DNA of 43,669 nucleotides from an uncultured Alphaproteobacteria bacterium (lineage in GTDB: Bacteria > Pseudomonadota > Alphaproteobacteria > HIMB59): the NCBI GenBank assembly GCA_902522585.1, contig CABYWI010000005.1, positions 1 to 43,669 of the forward strand, given 5' to 3'. Positions within the stretch are counted from its first letter, which is position 1. Every line of letters starts with the position of its first letter. Shown one piece after another: positions 12,137 through 36,572 of the stretch. The notes under the pieces were generated by a model. The model worked only from the letters and a program-made list of their open reading frames with translations, made no database searches and was not told the DNA's origin. Position numbers and translations under genes: made by a program.

Positions 12137-12649
12137 ATGACCACATTGGCTCAAATCTCAAAATTTCTTGACCGAATTAACACCTATATTGGTTATCTAT
12201 GTGGAATTTTTGCTTTCTCGATGGTGATTGTAGTTTTCAGTGTAGTTGTGCTTAGATACGGTTTTAGTATTGGCTTCATTTGGATGCAAGAAATTTATGT
12301 TTGGCTTCATAGCTTTATTTTTATGTTGGGAAGTGGTTTTACTTATTTGGCGAATGAGCATGTTCGAATTGATGTCTTTTATCGTGATGCTTCTGCAAAG
12401 TATAAGGCAACGGTTGATATCTTGGGTAATATTTTCTTATTAATTCCATTTTTGTACATCATATGGAAATTTAGCTTTCCATTTGTCTACCGTTCTTTTT
12501 TAATGAACGAGGTTTCAAGAGAGGCTGGAGGAATGCCAGCCCTTTACATTTTAAAAAGTGCTATTCTTTGGTTTTGTATAGTTTTGTTTATACAAATCAT
12601 CTCTAATATTTGTAAATCTGTTCTCTCATTATCTGGATCTAAAACATGA
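12137..12649 (+). CDS. dctQ: TRAP transporter small permease (DctQ family)
   Basis: Four-TM protein with 'FSIGFIWMQEIYVWLHSFIFMLGSGFTYLANEHVRIDVFY'; overlaps dctM by ATGA. Confidence 0.93.
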   Translation: MTTLAQISKFLDRINTYIGYLCGIFAFSMVIVVFSVVVLRYGFSIGFIWMQEIYVWLHSFIFMLGSGFTYLANEHVRIDVFYRDASAKYKATVDILGNIFLLIPFLYIIWKFSFPFVYRSFLMNEVSREAGGMPALYILKSAILWFCIVLFIQIISNICKSVLSLSGSKT

Positions 12650-25110: not shown

Positions 25111-25139
25111 TTGATGTTGTTTTCACGTCAAATTATAAT
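25111..25139 (+). promoter_or_regulatory. Predicted sigma70-type promoter for a short terminated RNA
   Basis: TTGATG (25111-25116), 17-nt spacer, TATAAT (25134-25139). Confidence 0.7.
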
Positions 25140-25145
25140 GGGTTT

Positions 25146-25250
25146 AAGAGAGAAAATCTCTATTTTTACAGCCTTGTAGAAGCGGCTTTTTTCTTAGTGG
25201 GCCACTTCTTTCTTAAGAGGGTTAGGGCATTATTGTCCTAACCCTTTTTT
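25146..25250 (+). ncRNA. Candidate ~105-nt sRNA or attenuator leader, unknown class
   Basis: Strong promoter upstream, intrinsic terminator at the 3' end, and pairable internal segments: TTTAAGAGAG (25143-25152)/CTTTCTTAAG (25208-25217) and AGAAGcGGC/GCCaCTTCT. Confidence 0.6.
25218..25250 (+). terminator. Rho-independent terminator
   Basis: AGGGTTAGG-gcattattgt-CCTAACCCT followed by a T6 run. Confidence 0.88.
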
Positions 25251-25263
25251 CATTTTTATAATA

Positions 25264-25401
25264 ATGTCTTCACAAATGCTAAAATTAATTTTTTTGATTA
25301 TATTCTTTTTTATCGGATATTTTTTAGCTGACACAAAGATTATTGAAATACCATTTAGAGAAATGCCTTACTTAGAAAATTTCTATAGATTTGTGGAGTA
25401 A
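25264..25401 (+). CDS. Candidate 45-aa small membrane protein
   Basis: Hand translation MSSQMLKLIFLIIFFFIGYFLADTKIIEIPFREMPYLENFYRFVE*; one TM helix. Starts 13 nt after the terminator U tract. Below the ORF-track cut-off; no clear Shine-Dalgarno. Confidence 0.5.
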   Translation: MSSQMLKLIFLIIFFFIGYFLADTKIIEIPFREMPYLENFYRFVE

Positions 25402-25412
25402 AAAAACTTTAA

Positions 25413-25772
25413 TTAATCAAAAATTATACAGTAATACTTTTTTATCTTCTTTTTAATTGAACAAGTGCCTTTCCAATCTTTTGGAAAAATTGCAACTGTG
25501 CCTGGAATTACTTCAATTACTTGACCTTTATCTGATATATAAGTGCATTCTCCTTCTAAAAAATGACAAAATTCAGTATTTGTAACATGGCAGTTCCATG
25601 ATCCTTCAGTACATTGCCAATAACCTGACTCTTGAGTTTTATTTTTTGAAATTAAAAAACCAGAAGTTTGAGATATTTTTTCTCCAATTGGTCTTTCAAC
25701 CGCTCCCCAATCAACAAACGAGTTTTCATCTTTAAGTTTAATTGGGAGAGAATAATCTACATTACTTTCCAT
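25413..25772 (-). CDS. Cupin domain protein (DUF861-like)
   Basis: 119 aa; 'GYWQCTEGSWNCHVTNTEFCHFLEGECTYISDKGQVIEVIPGTVAIFPKDWKGTCSI'. Confidence 0.88.
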   Translation of the reverse strand: MESNVDYSLPIKLKDENSFVDWGAVERPIGEKISQTSGFLISKNKTQESGYWQCTEGSWNCHVTNTEFCHFLEGECTYISDKGQVIEVIPGTVAIFPKDWKGTCSIKKKIKKYYCIIFD

Positions 25773-25775
25773 AAA

Positions 25776-27044
25776 TTAAGCTAAATCTAAAATTAGTTTA
25801 GCTGCCTTACTAGAACCGTTATCAGACTGCATGAATTTAGAAGTGCTTAATAAGTTTTGTTGAATTTGCTCATCATTTAGTAAAAAATTTATATTATTAA
25901 TTAATAGATCGTCATCCCAATCACTACGATGCATTTTCAAACCATGTTTTGTCTCATGAACACGAGTTGCATTATCATGGCCGTCCCAAACATAAGGCAT
26001 AATAATAGCTGGTACTCCGAAATAAAGACATTCGGTAAAACTATTATTTCCTCCATGATGAATAACCAAATCACATTGAGGGATGACTGATGGTTGAGGA
26101 TACCAAGAGTCAATATGAATATTATCAGGAATATTTGTATATTCCTCTTTATAGTCACCTACATTTAATAAAATTCTATGATCTGTTTTTGCTAAAACAC
26201 TAATAAGTCTTTTGAATAAATCAGTATCACCCGCTCCAAGCGAACCAAAGCTTAAGTAAATAAGTTTTCCGTCATTATTTTTTTTAAAAGTAGGAACTAT
26301 ATATTTTTTTTCATTTCTCACGCATCCATGCAAATATTGAAACTTATTTGGATCTAAAGCATTTTGTCTTTTAAATTTAACTGGTTCTGGGTATAGCAAT
26401 AGATTTAAATGAGGAGAAGCTTCAAAAAATTCGCCCAAAGGGTATGGTTGCTCACCACATTCAGAGATAAACTTGTTAAATTTTTCATGAATAGGTTTCA
26501 CTGTCTCTAAAAATTTATCATTAAATTTTTTAAAACCTTCTAAATCACTCTCACCACATCCTGATAAATGAGGAGGGATTTTGGGATCAGGAATTTCATT
26601 TTCACTACAAGAAATGATTCGAACCCATGGTTTTCCATATTGTTTTGTTGCTGGAAATAAGATGACGTTATCTATGCAAATAACATCAGGTTTAATTTTA
26701 TTAAGTACATTAGGGAGATCTTTTTCTGCCCATACAGATGTTTCAACAATTGCATCCCAACAATCTTTTACATAATTTTCAATTTGATCAATCGGTTGTT
26801 TATTAAAATTTGGAATGTGACCATTAATAAAATCAACCCAATATTTAGCCATCTCTTCTGCAGACATAGGCTCAGACATATTCACATGATGTTCTTCAAA
26901 ACCATATTGTGAAAAAACTCCCTCAAAACCTTTATCACAAATAAATACAGGATTGTGTCCTAATTTTTTTACCTCCTGGGCAATACCTACTGAATTTAGA
27001 GCTGGACCAAAAGCGGCCTCTGGGAAAAAAGCAATAGTTTTCAA
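25776..27044 (-). CDS. UGT-like glycosyltransferase family 1 protein
   Basis: 'LIYLSFGSLGAGD', 'DNIHIDSWYPQPSVIPQCDLVIHHGGNNSFTECLYFGVPAIIMPYVWDGHDNATRVHE' matches the UGT nucleotide-sugar-binding signature. Confidence 0.88.
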   Translation of the reverse strand: MKTIAFFPEAAFGPALNSVGIAQEVKKLGHNPVFICDKGFEGVFSQYGFEEHHVNMSEPMSAEEMAKYWVDFINGHIPNFNKQPIDQIENYVKDCWDAIVETSVWAEKDLPNVLNKIKPDVICIDNVILFPATKQYGKPWVRIISCSENEIPDPKIPPHLSGCGESDLEGFKKFNDKFLETVKPIHEKFNKFISECGEQPYPLGEFFEASPHLNLLLYPEPVKFKRQNALDPNKFQYLHGCVRNEKKYIVPTFKKNNDGKLIYLSFGSLGAGDTDLFKRLISVLAKTDHRILLNVGDYKEEYTNIPDNIHIDSWYPQPSVIPQCDLVIHHGGNNSFTECLYFGVPAIIMPYVWDGHDNATRVHETKHGLKMHRSDWDDDLLINNINFLLNDEQIQQNLLSTSKFMQSDNGSSKAAKLILDLA

Positions 27045-27067
27045 ATCAATTTCCTCCTAATCTTAAA

Positions 27068-28099
27068 TCAGTATAGCCTAAAAGAACTTAAGGCACAATA
27101 TAATGAAATATTTGTGTTCAAAATTAATTCTTGGTTCTTATGACATTTTATTAAAATTGGCTCTTCAGAAATTTTTGAATTTATAATTACTTCATTTTCT
27201 TGTCCGTGATAAATAATATCAATAATTTTTCCTTCAAATTTATAGTTTGTATTACCATTAGCTTTTAAAAGTATGTCTTCTGGTCTAATCCCAACACATT
27301 GGGGATTTTCAAAGTTATTTTCAAGCAAAGTTATAAAGCTATTATCTTGAAAATAAAAATTATTTCCCTCAATTTTTAATTTTTGGAAAAAATTCATTTT
27401 GCCAATAAATTCAGCTACAAATAAATTTTTAGGTTTTGAGTAAATTTCTTTAGGAGTTCCTACTTGAACAAGCTGTCCTTCATTCATTACGGCAACTCTA
27501 TCTGCTAATGCTAATGCCTCATCTTGATCATGGGTAACTATTATAAATGTAATACCAAATTGCTTTTGTAAGTTCTTTAATTCAATTTTCATCTTTTCTT
27601 TTAAATTTTTATCTAAAGCTGTTAGTGGTTCATCAAGTAGTAATACTTTAGGTTTTTTAACTAAACATCTTGCTAGGGCTACCCGTTGTTTTTGTCCGCC
27701 TGACAACTGATCAGGATACCTTTCCTCTAGTCCAGTTAAATTTGTTTTGCAAATAATTTCATTTACTCTTATTGATATTTCTTGTTTTTCAAGCTTTTCT
27801 CTTTCCAATCCATATGCAATATTTTTAAAAACATTATAATGCGGGAACAAAGCATATGATTGGAACATCAAATTTGTTGGTCTCACAAAAGGCTTTAAGT
27901 TGGTGATATTCTCTTTATCTAAAAATATATTGCCACCATCAGCTAGCTCAAAACCTGAAATCACTCTCAATAATGTTGTCTTTCCGCAACCACTTGGCCC
28001 AAGTAATGCGAAAAATTCTCCATGATTGATACCAATAGAAAAATCTTTAACAGCAAATAAATTTCCAAACTTTTTTGTAATTGATTTAACCTCAATCAT
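27068..28099 (-). CDS. potA: Spermidine/putrescine ABC transporter ATP-binding protein
   Basis: Walker A 'LGPSGCGKTTLLR', signature 'LSGGQKQRVALARCLVKKPKVLLLDEPLTALD', TOBE-like C-terminus; in a potABCD cluster. Confidence 0.93.
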   Translation of the reverse strand: MIEVKSITKKFGNLFAVKDFSIGINHGEFFALLGPSGCGKTTLLRVISGFELADGGNIFLDKENITNLKPFVRPTNLMFQSYALFPHYNVFKNIAYGLEREKLEKQEISIRVNEIICKTNLTGLEERYPDQLSGGQKQRVALARCLVKKPKVLLLDEPLTALDKNLKEKMKIELKNLQKQFGITFIIVTHDQDEALALADRVAVMNEGQLVQVGTPKEIYSKPKNLFVAEFIGKMNFFQKLKIEGNNFYFQDNSFITLLENNFENPQCVGIRPEDILLKANGNTNYKFEGKIIDIIYHGQENEVIINSKISEEPILIKCHKNQELILNTNISLYCALSSFRLY

Positions 28100-28860
28100 T
28101 ATATTAATAACTTTCCTTTTACTGCTCTTTGAGAAATAAATACAATAGTAAAGCTAAATAGAATAATAAAAGTTGATAGCGCATTAATTTCTGGAGTAAC
28201 TCCAAATCTAATCATTGAATATATTAACATTGGTAAAGTGGTTGAAGATGACCCAGCACCAGATGTAAAAAATGCAATTATAAACTCATCAAAAGATAGC
28301 GTGAAAGACAATAAAGAACCCGCTATAACTCCTGGCAGAATAATTGGTAGAGTAATTTTGATAAATGTTATTATATGTTTTCCTCCTAAATCATAGGATG
28401 CTTCTATAACATTATGGTCAAAGTATTTAAATCTTGTTCTGACTACTGCACAAACAAATGCTGTGTTAAAAACGACATGGCTGATAATTATAGAATGAAG
28501 GCCCAACGTAAATTGTAGTAAAGTAAAAAAAGATAATAAAGAAATAGCCATTACTATATCTGGAATTATCATTGGAATAAAAGCCGTTGCCTCAATATAT
28601 TTATTTGATTTTCTTAACTCCATACCCATAGCAAGAAGAGTGCCTAATAACCCAGCTATAATTGTAGAAAAAAAAGCTACAATTATTGTATTAAATAATG
28701 CTTTAAAAATTTTTTGATTTTCAAATAACTCATAATACCAATTTATGCTAAAACCACCCCAGCTTGTTGGCAACCCGGACTTATTAAAAGATAAGGTAAT
28801 TAGTGTTAAAATTGGAATGTATAAAAAACAAAAAACTATACATAAGTAGATCTTTTTCAT
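28099..28860 (-). CDS. potC: Polyamine ABC transporter permease
   Basis: Binding-protein-dependent permease; 'EASYDLGGKHIITFIKITLPIILPGVIAGSLLSFTLSFDEFIIAFF'. Confidence 0.92.
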   Translation of the reverse strand: MKKIYLCIVFCFLYIPILTLITLSFNKSGLPTSWGGFSINWYYELFENQKIFKALFNTIIVAFFSTIIAGLLGTLLAMGMELRKSNKYIEATAFIPMIIPDIVMAISLLSFFTLLQFTLGLHSIIISHVVFNTAFVCAVVRTRFKYFDHNVIEASYDLGGKHIITFIKITLPIILPGVIAGSLLSFTLSFDEFIIAFFTSGAGSSSTTLPMLIYSMIRFGVTPEINALSTFIILFSFTIVFISQRAVKGKLLI

Positions 28861-29684
28861 AATTTTTTTCTAGCTAAGATCAAAGACTGAATAAATAATA
28901 AACTTAACATAATTGTAACTAAGATAAGGGAAAGGCTTGACCCAAATGGCCAATCTCTTGCTGATAAGAATTGATCATATATTAGATTTCCTATCATTAA
29001 AAACTTCCCTCCTCCCAAAAGGTCAGGTGTTATAAAATTGCCAACACTTAGAACAAAAACAAATATAAATCCTGCTAATATACCTGGTAAGCTCAATGGA
29101 ATAATTACTCTAATAAGAGTATCAAAAAAATTACCGCCTAAATCTTCAGAGGCTTCAATAATTTCCTTATTCATGGTTGATAAAGAAGCATAAATACTAA
29201 GCACCACAAAAGGTAAATAGTTATAAACAAGTCCGACAATAACTGAAAATTTTGTATATAGAAGTCTGATTGGCTCATCTATCAGACCAATATAAATGAG
29301 TAGATTGTTTATCAATCCTTGATTGTTCAATAGAACCATCCAGGAATAAGTTCTAATTAAATAATTACTCCAAAAGGGCAGCATCATAAAGAAAAGTAAT
29401 AATATTTGATATTTAGGATTTGCTTTTGTAATACAATAAGCTGCTGGAAAGGCAATTAGTACTGAAATAGAGGCAGCCAGAAATGCAATCTGGCCTGAAG
29501 TTAATAAAATTTTAAAATAGGTCCACTTAAATGATCTTACATAATTTTCTAAATTAAAATTATATTCAATTCCTCCATATACCCCTCTTTCAAAAAAACT
29601 ATAAGTAAAAATAATGATACATGGGATTAAGAGAAATAACGAAATCCATGTCAGACCTGGGAGAACTAATTTATTTTTGAACAT
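28857..29684 (-). CDS. potB: Polyamine ABC transporter permease
   Basis: 'EASEDLGGNFFDTLIRVIIPLSLPGILAGFIFVFVLSVGNFITPDLLGG'. Confidence 0.92.
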   Translation of the reverse strand: MFKNKLVLPGLTWISLFLLIPCIIIFTYSFFERGVYGGIEYNFNLENYVRSFKWTYFKILLTSGQIAFLAASISVLIAFPAAYCITKANPKYQILLLFFMMLPFWSNYLIRTYSWMVLLNNQGLINNLLIYIGLIDEPIRLLYTKFSVIVGLVYNYLPFVVLSIYASLSTMNKEIIEASEDLGGNFFDTLIRVIIPLSLPGILAGFIFVFVLSVGNFITPDLLGGGKFLMIGNLIYDQFLSARDWPFGSSLSLILVTIMLSLLFIQSLILARKKL

Positions 29685-29690
29685 TATTTA

Positions 29691-29718
29691 TAGTGGGGAT
29701 AGATATTTATCCCCACTA
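29691..29718 (-). other. Perfect intergenic stem-loop between potD and potB
   Basis: TAGTGGGGATA / GATATT / TATCCCCACTA, 11-bp perfect stem with no following U tract; lies 7 nt upstream of the potB ATG. Confidence 0.82.
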
Positions 29719-29731
29719 ATTTAAATTTTAA

Positions 29732-30763
29732 TTAATCTGCTAAAATATCTGCAACGGTAGTTGCATATAATTTTGTAGCATCACCCACATCTTTAAGAGT
29801 TTCCATGGAAGACAAATATTGTGCTGAGTAACCCATGTTAGGGAAAGCATCTACCAATCCAGGAATTGTTTTTTCCATTGCGGCTTTGTTTGGCGTTTTG
29901 TACAAAATATTTTCTATGGTCCAAGCACCAATATTTTCATCTAAAATATAGTTTATAAAAGCATGGGCAGCGTCCATATTTTTAGATCCTTTTAAAATAA
30001 CCATGGTATCAACCCATAGGTCTGAACCCTCGGAAGGTACAACAAATTTTACATCTGGGTTTTCCCATGTTGCATAATTACACCAACCATCCCAAGCATG
30101 GGCCATGACTGCCTCGCCTGAAACTAACTTTGAGTAAAACGTTGTATCATCATAAGATAATAAATTTTGCTTAGCTGAGATTAAAACATCTTTTACCATG
30201 TCGAGCTTTGCGGGATCTGTCTCATTAACAGAAAAACCTAATGAAAGCATTCCTGCAGATAATAGCCACCTATCAGTAGATAACATTGTTACTTTCCCAT
30301 GTAAATCTAGTGGTGGGTTTAAAAGATGATTCCAGCTAGTAGGTTCTTCTGAAACCAAATCAGATCTATAGCAAATACCTGTGGTGCCCCAAGCATAGGG
30401 TACTTGAAACTGATTTCCTAAATCAAAATCTAAATTCATAGACCACGAGTCAAGATTTTTCATGTTTGGTATTTTGCTATGATTGATAGTTGCAAGCAAT
30501 CCTAGCTCATTAAGCGCTTCAGCAAAAGGCGATGATACAAACAAGACATCATATCCAGCACCTTTGCTAGCTACTACCTTACCCATTATTTCTTCATTCG
30601 TAGCATGAAAAGACATTTCACCTTCGAAACCAGTTGAAGCAGCAAATGTGTCCATAATGTCTGGTGGTGAGTAGCCATCCCAGTTTGAAACAACTAAGTC
30701 TGATTTAGCTGTGCCCCATGCAAAAAATAAAAATGGCATAATTAAATATACTAATTTTCGCAT
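29732..30763 (-). CDS. potD: Polyamine ABC transporter substrate-binding protein
   Basis: Signal peptide; 'LVVSNWDGYSPPDIMDTFAASTGFEGEMSFHATNEEIMGKV'; 'AHAFINYILDENIGAWTIENILYKTPNKAA'. Confidence 0.92.
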   Translation of the reverse strand: MRKLVYLIMPFLFFAWGTAKSDLVVSNWDGYSPPDIMDTFAASTGFEGEMSFHATNEEIMGKVVASKGAGYDVLFVSSPFAEALNELGLLATINHSKIPNMKNLDSWSMNLDFDLGNQFQVPYAWGTTGICYRSDLVSEEPTSWNHLLNPPLDLHGKVTMLSTDRWLLSAGMLSLGFSVNETDPAKLDMVKDVLISAKQNLLSYDDTTFYSKLVSGEAVMAHAWDGWCNYATWENPDVKFVVPSEGSDLWVDTMVILKGSKNMDAAHAFINYILDENIGAWTIENILYKTPNKAAMEKTIPGLVDAFPNMGYSAQYLSSMETLKDVGDATKLYATTVADILAD

Positions 30764-30816
30764 TTATTCTTCCTCCTTACTTACTAAAATTTTGTTATAT
30801 TTATAATACATTATTT

Positions 30817-32106
30817 ATGAAATATCTTAATTATAACTTTGCAGAAAATGGAAATATATTTTGGGAAAATAAAGATAATCTATATCAAATTCCAAAAACT
30901 GAAATAGATGAATCGTATGATGTCGTAATAGTTGGAGGTGGAATTACAGGCTTATCTGCCGCTTATCATTTAAATAACGATAAAAAAATTCTCATTATTG
31001 ATAAACATAATATTGGCTATGGAGGTTCAAATAGGAATGGAGGTTTTTGTTGTTTAGGTGGCACAAAACTATCTTTTGAAGAAATCGATAGAAAATATGG
31101 ACGTTCAGACTTGGAATATTTTTTTAAAATACAAAAGTCTGCAATCGATTTAGTAGAGAACATACTTGGTAAAAACATCGAAAAGAATGAAAAAGGAGAA
31201 ATAACATATTATTACAATACGAAACAATTTAACAAAGATTTAAGAGAGCTTGATAAATATAAAAATTTATTAAATATAAATTATGAAAAATTGACTATTT
31301 CTTCTCTAAAACAAAATAGGCAGCTCATTTCTGGAGCTGTCGGAGCTATAAGATTGAATTATGGTTTTGGTGTAAATCCAAAAAATTTAGTTTGTAATTT
31401 GGTTAATAAGATAAACATAAGTGAAAATGTTAAATTTTTAGAAAATACTGAAGTAAAATATATTAAGAAAGAAAATAGCAATTTTGAAATTGAAATATCA
31501 AAAAGAAAAATTAAATCTAAAAAAATAATAATTGCAACTAATGGTTATTTAAATAATAAAAAAATATCAGGTAGAATTTATAAAAATATTATTCCAGCAC
31601 TCTCAAATATCTTGGTAACTGAGCCTATTGATAATAATTTATTTACTGATTGGAAGACAAATGTTCTGTGTACAGATAATAAAAAACTATTGCATTATTT
31701 TAGGCTTCTAGATGATAACCGTATTTTATTTGGAGGTAGAGGGGGTCATTCCTATAAAAATACAACTACATATAAAATAATTTTAGAAAATGACTTTAAA
31801 TTAATGTTTCCAGAATTTAGTGAAATTAAATTTGAGTATTTTTGGAGAGGTTTAGTAGGGGTTACTTTCGATAAAATAGCTCATATTGGAATGAATGATA
31901 ACAAGTACTATGCATATGGTTATAACGGAAATGGGGTAAGTCTTTCAACTTTCTTTGGTAAACTTATAGCAGAAATAATTGATGAAAAAATAACACTAGA
32001 TGAATTACCTAAATGTGTTACTTCATTTCCAAAATCAATGAATTTTCCGATTTTAAAAAGGTTTTATTTGTTTTTGGCCTATCAGTTTTATGGACTAAAA
32101 GGCTAG
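30817..32106 (+). CDS. FAD-dependent oxidoreductase (DAO family, gamma-glutamylputrescine oxidase-like)
   Basis: 'YDVVIVGGGITGLSAAYHL', 'GGSNRNGGFCCLGG', 'YYAYGYNGNGVSLSTFFGKLIAE'. Confidence 0.9.
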   Translation: MKYLNYNFAENGNIFWENKDNLYQIPKTEIDESYDVVIVGGGITGLSAAYHLNNDKKILIIDKHNIGYGGSNRNGGFCCLGGTKLSFEEIDRKYGRSDLEYFFKIQKSAIDLVENILGKNIEKNEKGEITYYYNTKQFNKDLRELDKYKNLLNINYEKLTISSLKQNRQLISGAVGAIRLNYGFGVNPKNLVCNLVNKINISENVKFLENTEVKYIKKENSNFEIEISKRKIKSKKIIIATNGYLNNKKISGRIYKNIIPALSNILVTEPIDNNLFTDWKTNVLCTDNKKLLHYFRLLDDNRILFGGRGGHSYKNTTTYKIILENDFKLMFPEFSEIKFEYFWRGLVGVTFDKIAHIGMNDNKYYAYGYNGNGVSLSTFFGKLIAEIIDEKITLDELPKCVTSFPKSMNFPILKRFYLFLAYQFYGLKG

Positions 32107-32157: not shown

Positions 32158-33507
32158 ATGATGATTAATACAGAAAGTGTCTTACATGGTTTTACTGATC
32201 TAAAAAATTTAGATCATCTTGGTCCGATTGTTTTGAATCAAGCAAAAGGAATTTATGTATATGACCAAAATGGAAAAAAATACTTAGATGCTAACTCAGG
32301 GTTATGGAATTCAGTTGTAGGTTTCGACCATCCGAGGATGATAGAGGCTGCAAAAAAACAATATGAAAAATTCTCAGGCTACCACTCTTTTTTTGGAAGA
32401 ATCGCTGAGCCTGCTGTTGATCTTGCAGATAAATTAATTGAAATTTCTCCGTTTAATAAAGGTAAGGTATTTTTTACAAATTCAGGCTCTGAGGCAAACG
32501 ATACAACTGTAAAGTTACTTTGGTTTATCAACCGAAAGAAGGGCTTACCGAATAAAAGAAAAATTATTACTAGAATTAACTCTTATCATGGTGTCACTGC
32601 TGTTTCAGCTTCCATGACAGGCAAACCTTATAATAGTGAATTTGGCTTGCCTTTGGATGGTTTTATTCACGCAGCATGTCCTCATTATTGGAAAAACGGC
32701 CACGCAGGAGAGAACGAAGAATCGTTTACTAAAAGAATGGGTGAAGATTTAGAGAATATTATTCTTAGAGAAGGTGCTGATACTATAGCAGGATTTTTTG
32801 CTGAACCCGTTATGGGTGCAGGAGGAGTGATACCTCCTTCAAAAGGTTACTTTGAAGTAATTCAAAAAATTTTAAAAAAATATGATATTCCATTAATCGC
32901 AGATGAGGTTATTTGTGGATTTGGAAGAACGGGTAATCTTTGGGGTTCACAAACATATAATATCAAACCAGATATTCTGATTGCATCTAAATGTATCACA
33001 TCAGGCTTTTTTCCTTTAGGTGCTGTAATTTTGGGTGATCGTATTTCAAATGATTTAATGGAAGCATCTTACAAAGCTGAGGAATTTCCTCATGGTTTTA
33101 CAGCTGGTGGTCATCCAGTTGGTTGTGCTTTGGCCTTAGAAGCAATTGATATAATCATTAATGAAAAAATGATTGAAAACGTTCAAAGATTAGAGCCAAT
33201 ATTTATGGGTAGATTAAAGAAATTTGAAGAATTTGAGTTTATTGGTGAGGCTAGAGGTATTGGTCTTATGGGTGCTTTAGAAATGGTTCATGATAAAAAA
33301 ACCAAAACACCTTTTGATGGATCTGTTTCCATTGGAGAACGAGTGGCTAATCAATGCATTGAAAACGGATTAATTTGTAGACCTTTAGGGCCATCAATTG
33401 TTCTTTGTCCTCCTTTTATCACAACAGATGATGAAATGGGAATAATTTTTGAAACTTTAGATAAAACTCTAAAGAAAGTTTTTAGTGAAGTTAAATCTCT
33501 AGGATAA
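32158..33507 (+). CDS. Class-III aminotransferase (putrescine/omega-amino acid aminotransferase-like)
   Basis: 'VFFTNSGSEANDTTVKL', 'SYHGVTAVSASMTG', 'PLIADEVICGFGRTGNLWGSQTYNIKPDILIASKCITSGFFPLGAVI'. ATG at 32158 follows GGGAG; the track starts at 32137. Confidence 0.93.
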   Translation: MMINTESVLHGFTDLKNLDHLGPIVLNQAKGIYVYDQNGKKYLDANSGLWNSVVGFDHPRMIEAAKKQYEKFSGYHSFFGRIAEPAVDLADKLIEISPFNKGKVFFTNSGSEANDTTVKLLWFINRKKGLPNKRKIITRINSYHGVTAVSASMTGKPYNSEFGLPLDGFIHAACPHYWKNGHAGENEESFTKRMGEDLENIILREGADTIAGFFAEPVMGAGGVIPPSKGYFEVIQKILKKYDIPLIADEVICGFGRTGNLWGSQTYNIKPDILIASKCITSGFFPLGAVILGDRISNDLMEASYKAEEFPHGFTAGGHPVGCALALEAIDIIINEKMIENVQRLEPIFMGRLKKFEEFEFIGEARGIGLMGALEMVHDKKTKTPFDGSVSIGERVANQCIENGLICRPLGPSIVLCPPFITTDDEMGIIFETLDKTLKKVFSEVKSLG

Positions 33508-35786: not shown

Positions 35787-36572
35787 ATGGCTAAAATTCT
35801 GAGCATTCAATCAACAGTTTTAAACGATTTAGTTGGAAATCAAGCTGCTCGATCAATTCTAAAGCCTCTGAAACATAACCTAATTGAAGTTCCAACTATT
35901 ATTCTTACATCACATAAAGGTCAAAAATCATCCCTTCAAATTCATTCAAATGAGTTAAATATTTCGAAAATTTTTAATAACGTTCGTTTCACTTATGGTA
36001 TCAAAAAAAGTGATTTGACAATTATTGGTTATTTACCATCAAAAAACTCCACAAAACATATTTCTCACATTATGAAAACTCAAAGAAATATTTTACTTGA
36101 TCCAGTCATTGGCGATATTGGTGTTGGAATGTATGTAAATTCTGACATAGCTAAATATTTTCAAAGCATATTTACAAAAACAAAATATCTATCTGCTAAT
36201 TTTTTTGAATGGAGTTTTCTAAATAAAAAAGATATCAGTCAATATCCATTTTTAGAGGTAGTTAATGATTTAAAAAAATTCTCTTCTGAAAATAATTCTA
36301 TTGTTTTAATAAGAAGTATTCCAAAAAAAAATAAATTAATCAATTTATTAGCTAGCCCAAAGGGGGCTTGGAGTATCAAAACTCCTGAAATTAAGTTTAA
36401 GACTCGCTATCATGGAGCAGGTGATCTGAGCACAGCATTATTTGCTCATTATTTGACTCAAAAAATATCAGAGAAAAAAATATTAGAGAGTTTGACAAAC
36501 GATATTTTTCAAATCATTTCAAAAAAAAGGAAAAAAAATAAATTTAAATCTACGAGCTTAAGTAGTCTTTGA
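35787..36572 (+). CDS. Divergent pyridoxal/pyridoxamine kinase-like protein (PdxY family)
   Basis: 'ILSIQSTVLNDLVGNQAARSILKPL', 'LLDPVIGDIGVGMYVN', 'TRYHGAGDLSTALFAHYL' match the PdxY layout. Confidence 0.75.
   Translation: MAKILSIQSTVLNDLVGNQAARSILKPLKHNLIEVPTIILTSHKGQKSSLQIHSNELNISKIFNNVRFTYGIKKSDLTIIGYLPSKNSTKHISHIMKTQRNILLDPVIGDIGVGMYVNSDIAKYFQSIFTKTKYLSANFFEWSFLNKKDISQYPFLEVVNDLKKFSSENNSIVLIRSIPKKNKLINLLASPKGAWSIKTPEIKFKTRYHGAGDLSTALFAHYLTQKISEKKILESLTNDIFQIISKKRKKNKFKSTSLSSL

Follow-up and report, generated by a model that had tools for sequence, protein, structure and literature searches.

The DNA analysed here, a window of 43,669 nucleotides from an uncultured alphaproteobacterium of the HIMB59 lineage, carries a conserved intergenic element that very probably belongs to a small RNA family not filed before and restricted to a single genus, as judged by comparison of relatives. 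The predicted RNA has about 105 nt and occupies positions 25146-25250; this and the other sequence elements between 25084 and 25401 described below are on the + strand. A reading of the same DNA from its sequence alone had left two choices, a small RNA or an attenuator. Comparison backs the former, as a new small RNA that has a promoter and a terminator to itself, while the attenuator lacks a conserved antiterminator. We favour, with modest confidence, an independent genus-specific small RNA over an attenuator. Bacteria of the HIMB59/AEGEAN-169 clade, whose genomes are small and streamlined, occur widely in the surface ocean. The genomics of this clade has been described (PMC10308909), and structured RNA candidates of another marine alphaproteobacterium, Candidatus Pelagibacter ubique (SAR11), were obtained by comparative analysis (Meyer et al. 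2009, PMC2704228). We found no report of the HIMB59 RNA in the open papers searched, which did not include metatranscriptome studies such as Shi et al. 2009.

Predicted promoter and terminator

The predicted promoter is composed of a -35 box, TTGATG (25111-25116), and a -10 box, TATAAT (25134-25139), separated by 17 nt. It is located where the sequence-only reading had placed it and it is kept in relatives. The -35 box is near-invariant across the genus, and both hexamers, with a spacing of 16-17 nt, are retained in 21 loci, with the exceptions of one TTGATA and three TATAGT/TATGAT; the spacer in locus L040, read from the aligned sequences, is 16 nt long. By consensus, TTGATG-17-TATAAT is the joint best promoter-like match in the region, and matches of this class are not enriched there (14 observed versus 18.7 expected from shuffles). 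The segment 25084-25110, which contains CAATTTTC joined to TTGATGT, forms a conserved block upstream of the -35 box. Its mean identity over 21 loci is 86-91%, compared with 43-66% in the adjoining coding sequence, and it could be an activator site or an UP-type element. A pattern search for the upstream CAAWTTTCTTGATGT element gave matches modestly above the reversed-pattern control, in which no conserved regulon was recognised.

In the alignment of the 21 loci, identity falls to 60-67% in the spacer and discriminator. It peaks on both sides of this dip, at the upstream block with the -35 box and at the linker with hairpin H2 (described below), as expected of a real promoter with a constrained RNA after it. 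The candidate gene thus has a conserved predicted promoter of its own. The distance from the -10 box to the first hairpin, H1, is about 5-8 nt across relatives, which makes the base of H1 the probable start of the RNA. Spacing from the -10 box would put the start site at about 25146, coinciding with the start of H1, and the match to the covariance model covers 25140-25250.

The intrinsic terminator consists of a 15-bp stem followed by T6 (25215-25250). It was correctly located in the sequence-only reading and is the sole site of its kind within 3 kb. The candidate gene also has its own terminator. To count compensatory changes, the arms of the stems were extracted by script from 26 distinct sequences, because automatic alignments shifted the divergent clade by one base in H2. 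In the terminator, 98% of the cells are paired, and double changes were found at four pairs (UA to CG, GC to AU, CG to GC and AU to UA). These counts are of sequences, and since most of the double changes separate clade B (L040, L041 and L083) from clade A, they represent few independent events. The fold model gives the terminator a pairing probability of 0.9998 in the full transcript.

Fold of the predicted RNA

The list of open reading frames bears out that about 105 nt between promoter and terminator contain no ORF, and indels within the transcript among relatives are not multiples of three. Folded as a single strand, the RNA is far more stable than its dinucleotide shuffles (z = -4.59), none of 200 of which was equally stable. 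The minimum free energy (MFE) fold comprises a 5' element, H2 and the terminator. The element is therefore non-coding and has a conserved secondary structure.

The 5'-terminal hairpin H1, AGAGA-GAAAA-TCTCT, corresponds to segment 25147-25161. Its loop and stem differ among relatives, and the hairpin is still present in most of them. H1 is followed by an unpaired, near-invariant linker, ATTTTTACAGCCTTGT (25162-25177), which is a candidate contact or seed region. Segment 25164-25183 has 97% identity within clade A; in clade B, ACAGCC of the linker is changed to GCAGAC. The second hairpin, H2 (25178-25209), has the strands AGAAG-c-GGC (25178-25186) and GCC-a-CTTCT (25201-25209), as had been proposed from the sequence, and a near-invariant 14-nt loop, TTTTTTCTTAGTGG. 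Among the 26 distinct sequences, H2 has a double change at one pair (GC to AU), U-A in place of its C.A mismatch in 4, and GU in place of GC in 5. The two outermost pairs are mostly absent in clade B. Across the homologous intergenic regions, the changes in H2 and in the terminator are thus compensatory.

A longer helix, TTTAAGAGAG/CTTTCTTAAG, which the sequence-only reading had drawn to close the domain around H2, is not supported. It is absent from the MFE fold, the 5' segment of relatives makes the local hairpin H1, and the first bases of TTTAAGAGAG are upstream of the predicted start site. That many relatives allow this helix to be drawn is due to the purine/pyrimidine runs that make up its two strands; the local H1 is preferred, and the changes in locus L041 (AAAGGAU/AUCCUUU) fit H1. 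A pairing of the linker with the 3' strand of H2 (GCCU:GGGC to GACU:GGUC, by eye) was also set aside, as a 4-bp helix with a single compensatory change is too weak.

It is very improbable that the locus is a promoter and terminator relic, or an insulator, with a functionless RNA in between. Such a view would accommodate a candidate RNA that lacks expression or target support. However, the transcribed middle, with the linker and most of H2 (25164-25203), is among the most conserved stretches, at 88-96% identity versus 43-66% in flanking coding sequence, and H2 is compensated.

Distribution and relation to known RNAs

Of 52 genomes of the HIMB59/AEGEAN-169 genus, 45 gave a match to the covariance model, in single copy and always at the same locus. 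The seven other genomes are 65-79% complete or have a contig end at the locus, so the stretch may simply be missing from them. When 60 relatives were searched at the DNA level, most members of the genus matched at the locus, in full or in part. In named genomes, matches to a pattern of the RNA core were from marine alphaproteobacteria, including 'alpha proteobacterium HIMB59 isolate MED-G104' and numerous single-cell genomes, and it is these matches that place the window in the HIMB59/AEGEAN-169 clade; none was found in viral contigs. No credible copy was found with the covariance model in the sister family or in a 385-genome sample of the class, and the sister-family orthologues of the aminotransferase discussed below have no such RNA upstream. 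This distribution is very probably that of a conserved, genus-limited small RNA family.

Several outside matches were inspected and rejected. Those in genomes G273 and G318 are plain terminators, and weak sister-family matches are lysine-repeat genes or unrelated sequence devoid of the conserved linker and loop. Away from the locus, secondary DNA matches to the H2 loop fall in lysine/alanine-rich repeat genes and are chance similarities. The lone outsider among the core-pattern matches, in an Oligoflexia MAG, is inside a lysine-rich repeat gene.

As the sequence-only reading had suspected, the RNA matches no recognisable family: in a scan of Rfam no score exceeded the gathering cut-off. The best weak match, rseX (30.6 versus 50 bits), covers only the terminator and downstream sequence (25206-25296). 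The RNA is not SRP RNA, as there is no RF00169 match in the window and the SRP RNA of the genus is located elsewhere. Neither is it 6S RNA, which is defined by a long hairpin with a central bubble; this feature is absent from the fold, and RF00013 gave no match. The search for RF00013 found no 6S RNA in the window or in the 52 genus genomes, while the control was found in Caulobacter. Hfq (PF17209), which an Hfq-dependent small RNA would need, was not detected in 6 genus genomes, including the single-contig G029, with positive controls in Caulobacter and E. coli. Similarly, ProQ (PF04352) was undetected in the genus genomes searched (G029 and others), with positive controls.

These results bear on whether the RNA might bind a protein, as a sponge or a 6S-type stand-in, instead of acting by base pairing. 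We consider this improbable. The 6S RNA undetected in 52 genomes with a positive Caulobacter control, the lack of detectable Hfq or ProQ, and a linker and loop as near-invariant as a protein site would all agree with it. Against it, the architecture has no long hairpin with a central bubble, no repeated protein-binding motif was seen, and a divergent 6S RNA may be missed by the stricter filters used. The searches for base-pairing targets gave the following. Matches to the complement of the linker seed were equal in number to the control. In a duplex search over the genes of the window, the best linker match was the gene at 35787 (-15 kcal/mol), an unconvincing value that was reached by 7% of shuffles.

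The 41-aa ORF and its neighbourhood

Past the terminator there is a conserved, uncalled membrane ORF whose existence the sequence-only reading had noticed. Its start needs revision, from 25264 to 25276, and its length from 45 to 41 amino acids (25276-25401). Relatives conserve a start that lies 25 nt, not 13 nt, past the U tract. Substitutions in the ORF are third-position-biased, and it has no Pfam match. The ORF was found in 45 of the 52 genus genomes and nowhere outside the genus, at the locus that holds the RNA. In each of the 20 loci where automatic location succeeded, it starts 22-37 nt past the U tract. In locus L090 (genome G149), the 41-aa ORF is apparently frameshifted (MLKLAFMVLFFFLRILLS), while the RNA is intact and H2 is fully paired.

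The gap before the ORF has no Shine-Dalgarno motif; in the window, such motifs were seen at 9 of the 39 ORF starts examined. A -10-like TATAAT (25257-25262), which is TATATT in most relatives, is located 11-14 nt before the conserved ATG and is possibly part of a separate short-leader promoter of the ORF. TATATT/TATAAT precedes the ATG in most clade A members, the match to a -10 box is poor in clade B, and the -35 box of the proposed second promoter is weak. Several other genes of the window have a -10-like box near the start codon, for example those at 12137 and 30817, which suggests short-leader or leaderless mRNAs.

At the other loci that were examined, the 41-aa ORF is directly followed by a class III aminotransferase, which by sequence comes closest to pyruvate-dependent amine transaminases of solved structure. 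In the window, it is found at 32161-33507, separated from the ORF by a cassette of about 6.7 kb (25413-32106), which comprises genes for a cupin, a glycosyltransferase, an ABC transporter with a polyamine-type solute-binding protein and an FAD oxidoreductase. The relatives read have no such polyamine-type transport and oxidation cassette at the corresponding place. Despite the insertion, the RNA core is unchanged; control of the aminotransferase is thus not its sole current role, unless the insertion is recent. In the sister-family locus L096, a different small membrane ORF (MNFLYKNEFWMILFSFGLLYW...) is upstream of the aminotransferase.

Discussion

The neighbourhood leaves a real but lesser chance that the 41-aa ORF, together with the aminotransferase operon in most species, is controlled by the RNA as a transcription-attenuation leader of riboswitch or protein-dependent type, in which a signal would let the polymerase past the terminator. 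The constant position 22-37 nt upstream of the ORF in 20 loci is that of a leader, the RNA and the ORF co-occur, and the aminotransferase comes next in the relatives that were read far enough. This perfect linkage to the ORF, which would fit a cis leader, counts against an independent small RNA, as do the failure to detect Hfq and ProQ, the target searches that gave no convincing match, and the weak -35 box and poor clade B -10 match of the proposed second promoter. Moreover, in truncated transcripts the clade A linker AGCCUU can pair with AGGGUU of the 5' arm of the terminator. However, 5-12% of shuffled linkers reach the same pairing, it is nearly absent in clade B, and in the full transcript the terminator wins; no mutually exclusive antiterminator is conserved in clades A and B. 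With no Shine-Dalgarno motif before the ORF, translation from a long leader would be poor unless it is initiated in another way, and in the window the aminotransferase has been displaced while the RNA core is unchanged. The independent small RNA is favoured because no conserved antiterminator was found and the terminator forms with a probability of about 1, because the ORF has no Shine-Dalgarno motif and has its own -10-like box, and because the RNA stays conserved where the aminotransferase no longer adjoins.

On the independent small RNA reading, transcription would begin at a sigma-70-type promoter of the gene itself and end at its own intrinsic terminator, giving an RNA of about 105 nt. 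Three hairpins would form, one at the 5' end, H2 with its conserved 14-nt loop, and the terminator, and the conserved linker would be exposed between the first two. The RNA would most likely act in trans and without Hfq, using the linker, the H2 loop or both to contact mRNAs or a protein. The 41-aa membrane protein and the aminotransferase would probably be expressed from their own short-leader promoter just past the terminator and so independently of the RNA.

The RNA resembles intergenic trans-encoded small RNAs in its length of about 105 nt, sigma-70-like promoter, 3' terminator with U tract, conserved unpaired segments and stem-loops with compensatory changes; it differs from them in having neither Hfq nor ProQ detected in its genus and no known homologue. 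With attenuation leaders and orphan riboswitch candidates it shares a structured RNA and terminator directly upstream of a small operon in constant synteny, whereas it has no conserved antiterminator, its first ORF has no Shine-Dalgarno motif, and it was kept after separation from the aminotransferase in the window. The candidates of Cand. Pelagibacter ubique (PMC2704228) also come from small-genome, AT-rich marine alphaproteobacteria by comparative discovery, but from another clade, and the HIMB59 RNA matches no curated Rfam family. As 6S RNA (RF00013) is a regulatory class undetected in the genus, a stand-in is conceivable, although the HIMB59 RNA is shorter, has three separate hairpins and gives no 6S match.

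A more speculative proposal, which we regard as doubtful, is a new HIMB59-restricted RNA class in which the near-invariant linker and H2 loop would form a ligand- or protein-sensing core controlling termination ahead of a clade-specific membrane microprotein and a transaminase. It would operate with no classical antiterminator, ahead of a transaminase of the amine:pyruvate type, in a host with no detectable Hfq, ProQ or 6S RNA.

The alignment and covariance model of the RNA are directly usable on marine metatranscriptomes and on the two reported isolates. For the study of RNA regulation in HIMB59/AEGEAN-169, where Hfq, ProQ and 6S RNA were not detected, a conserved non-coding gene in so small a genome would offer a concrete start.
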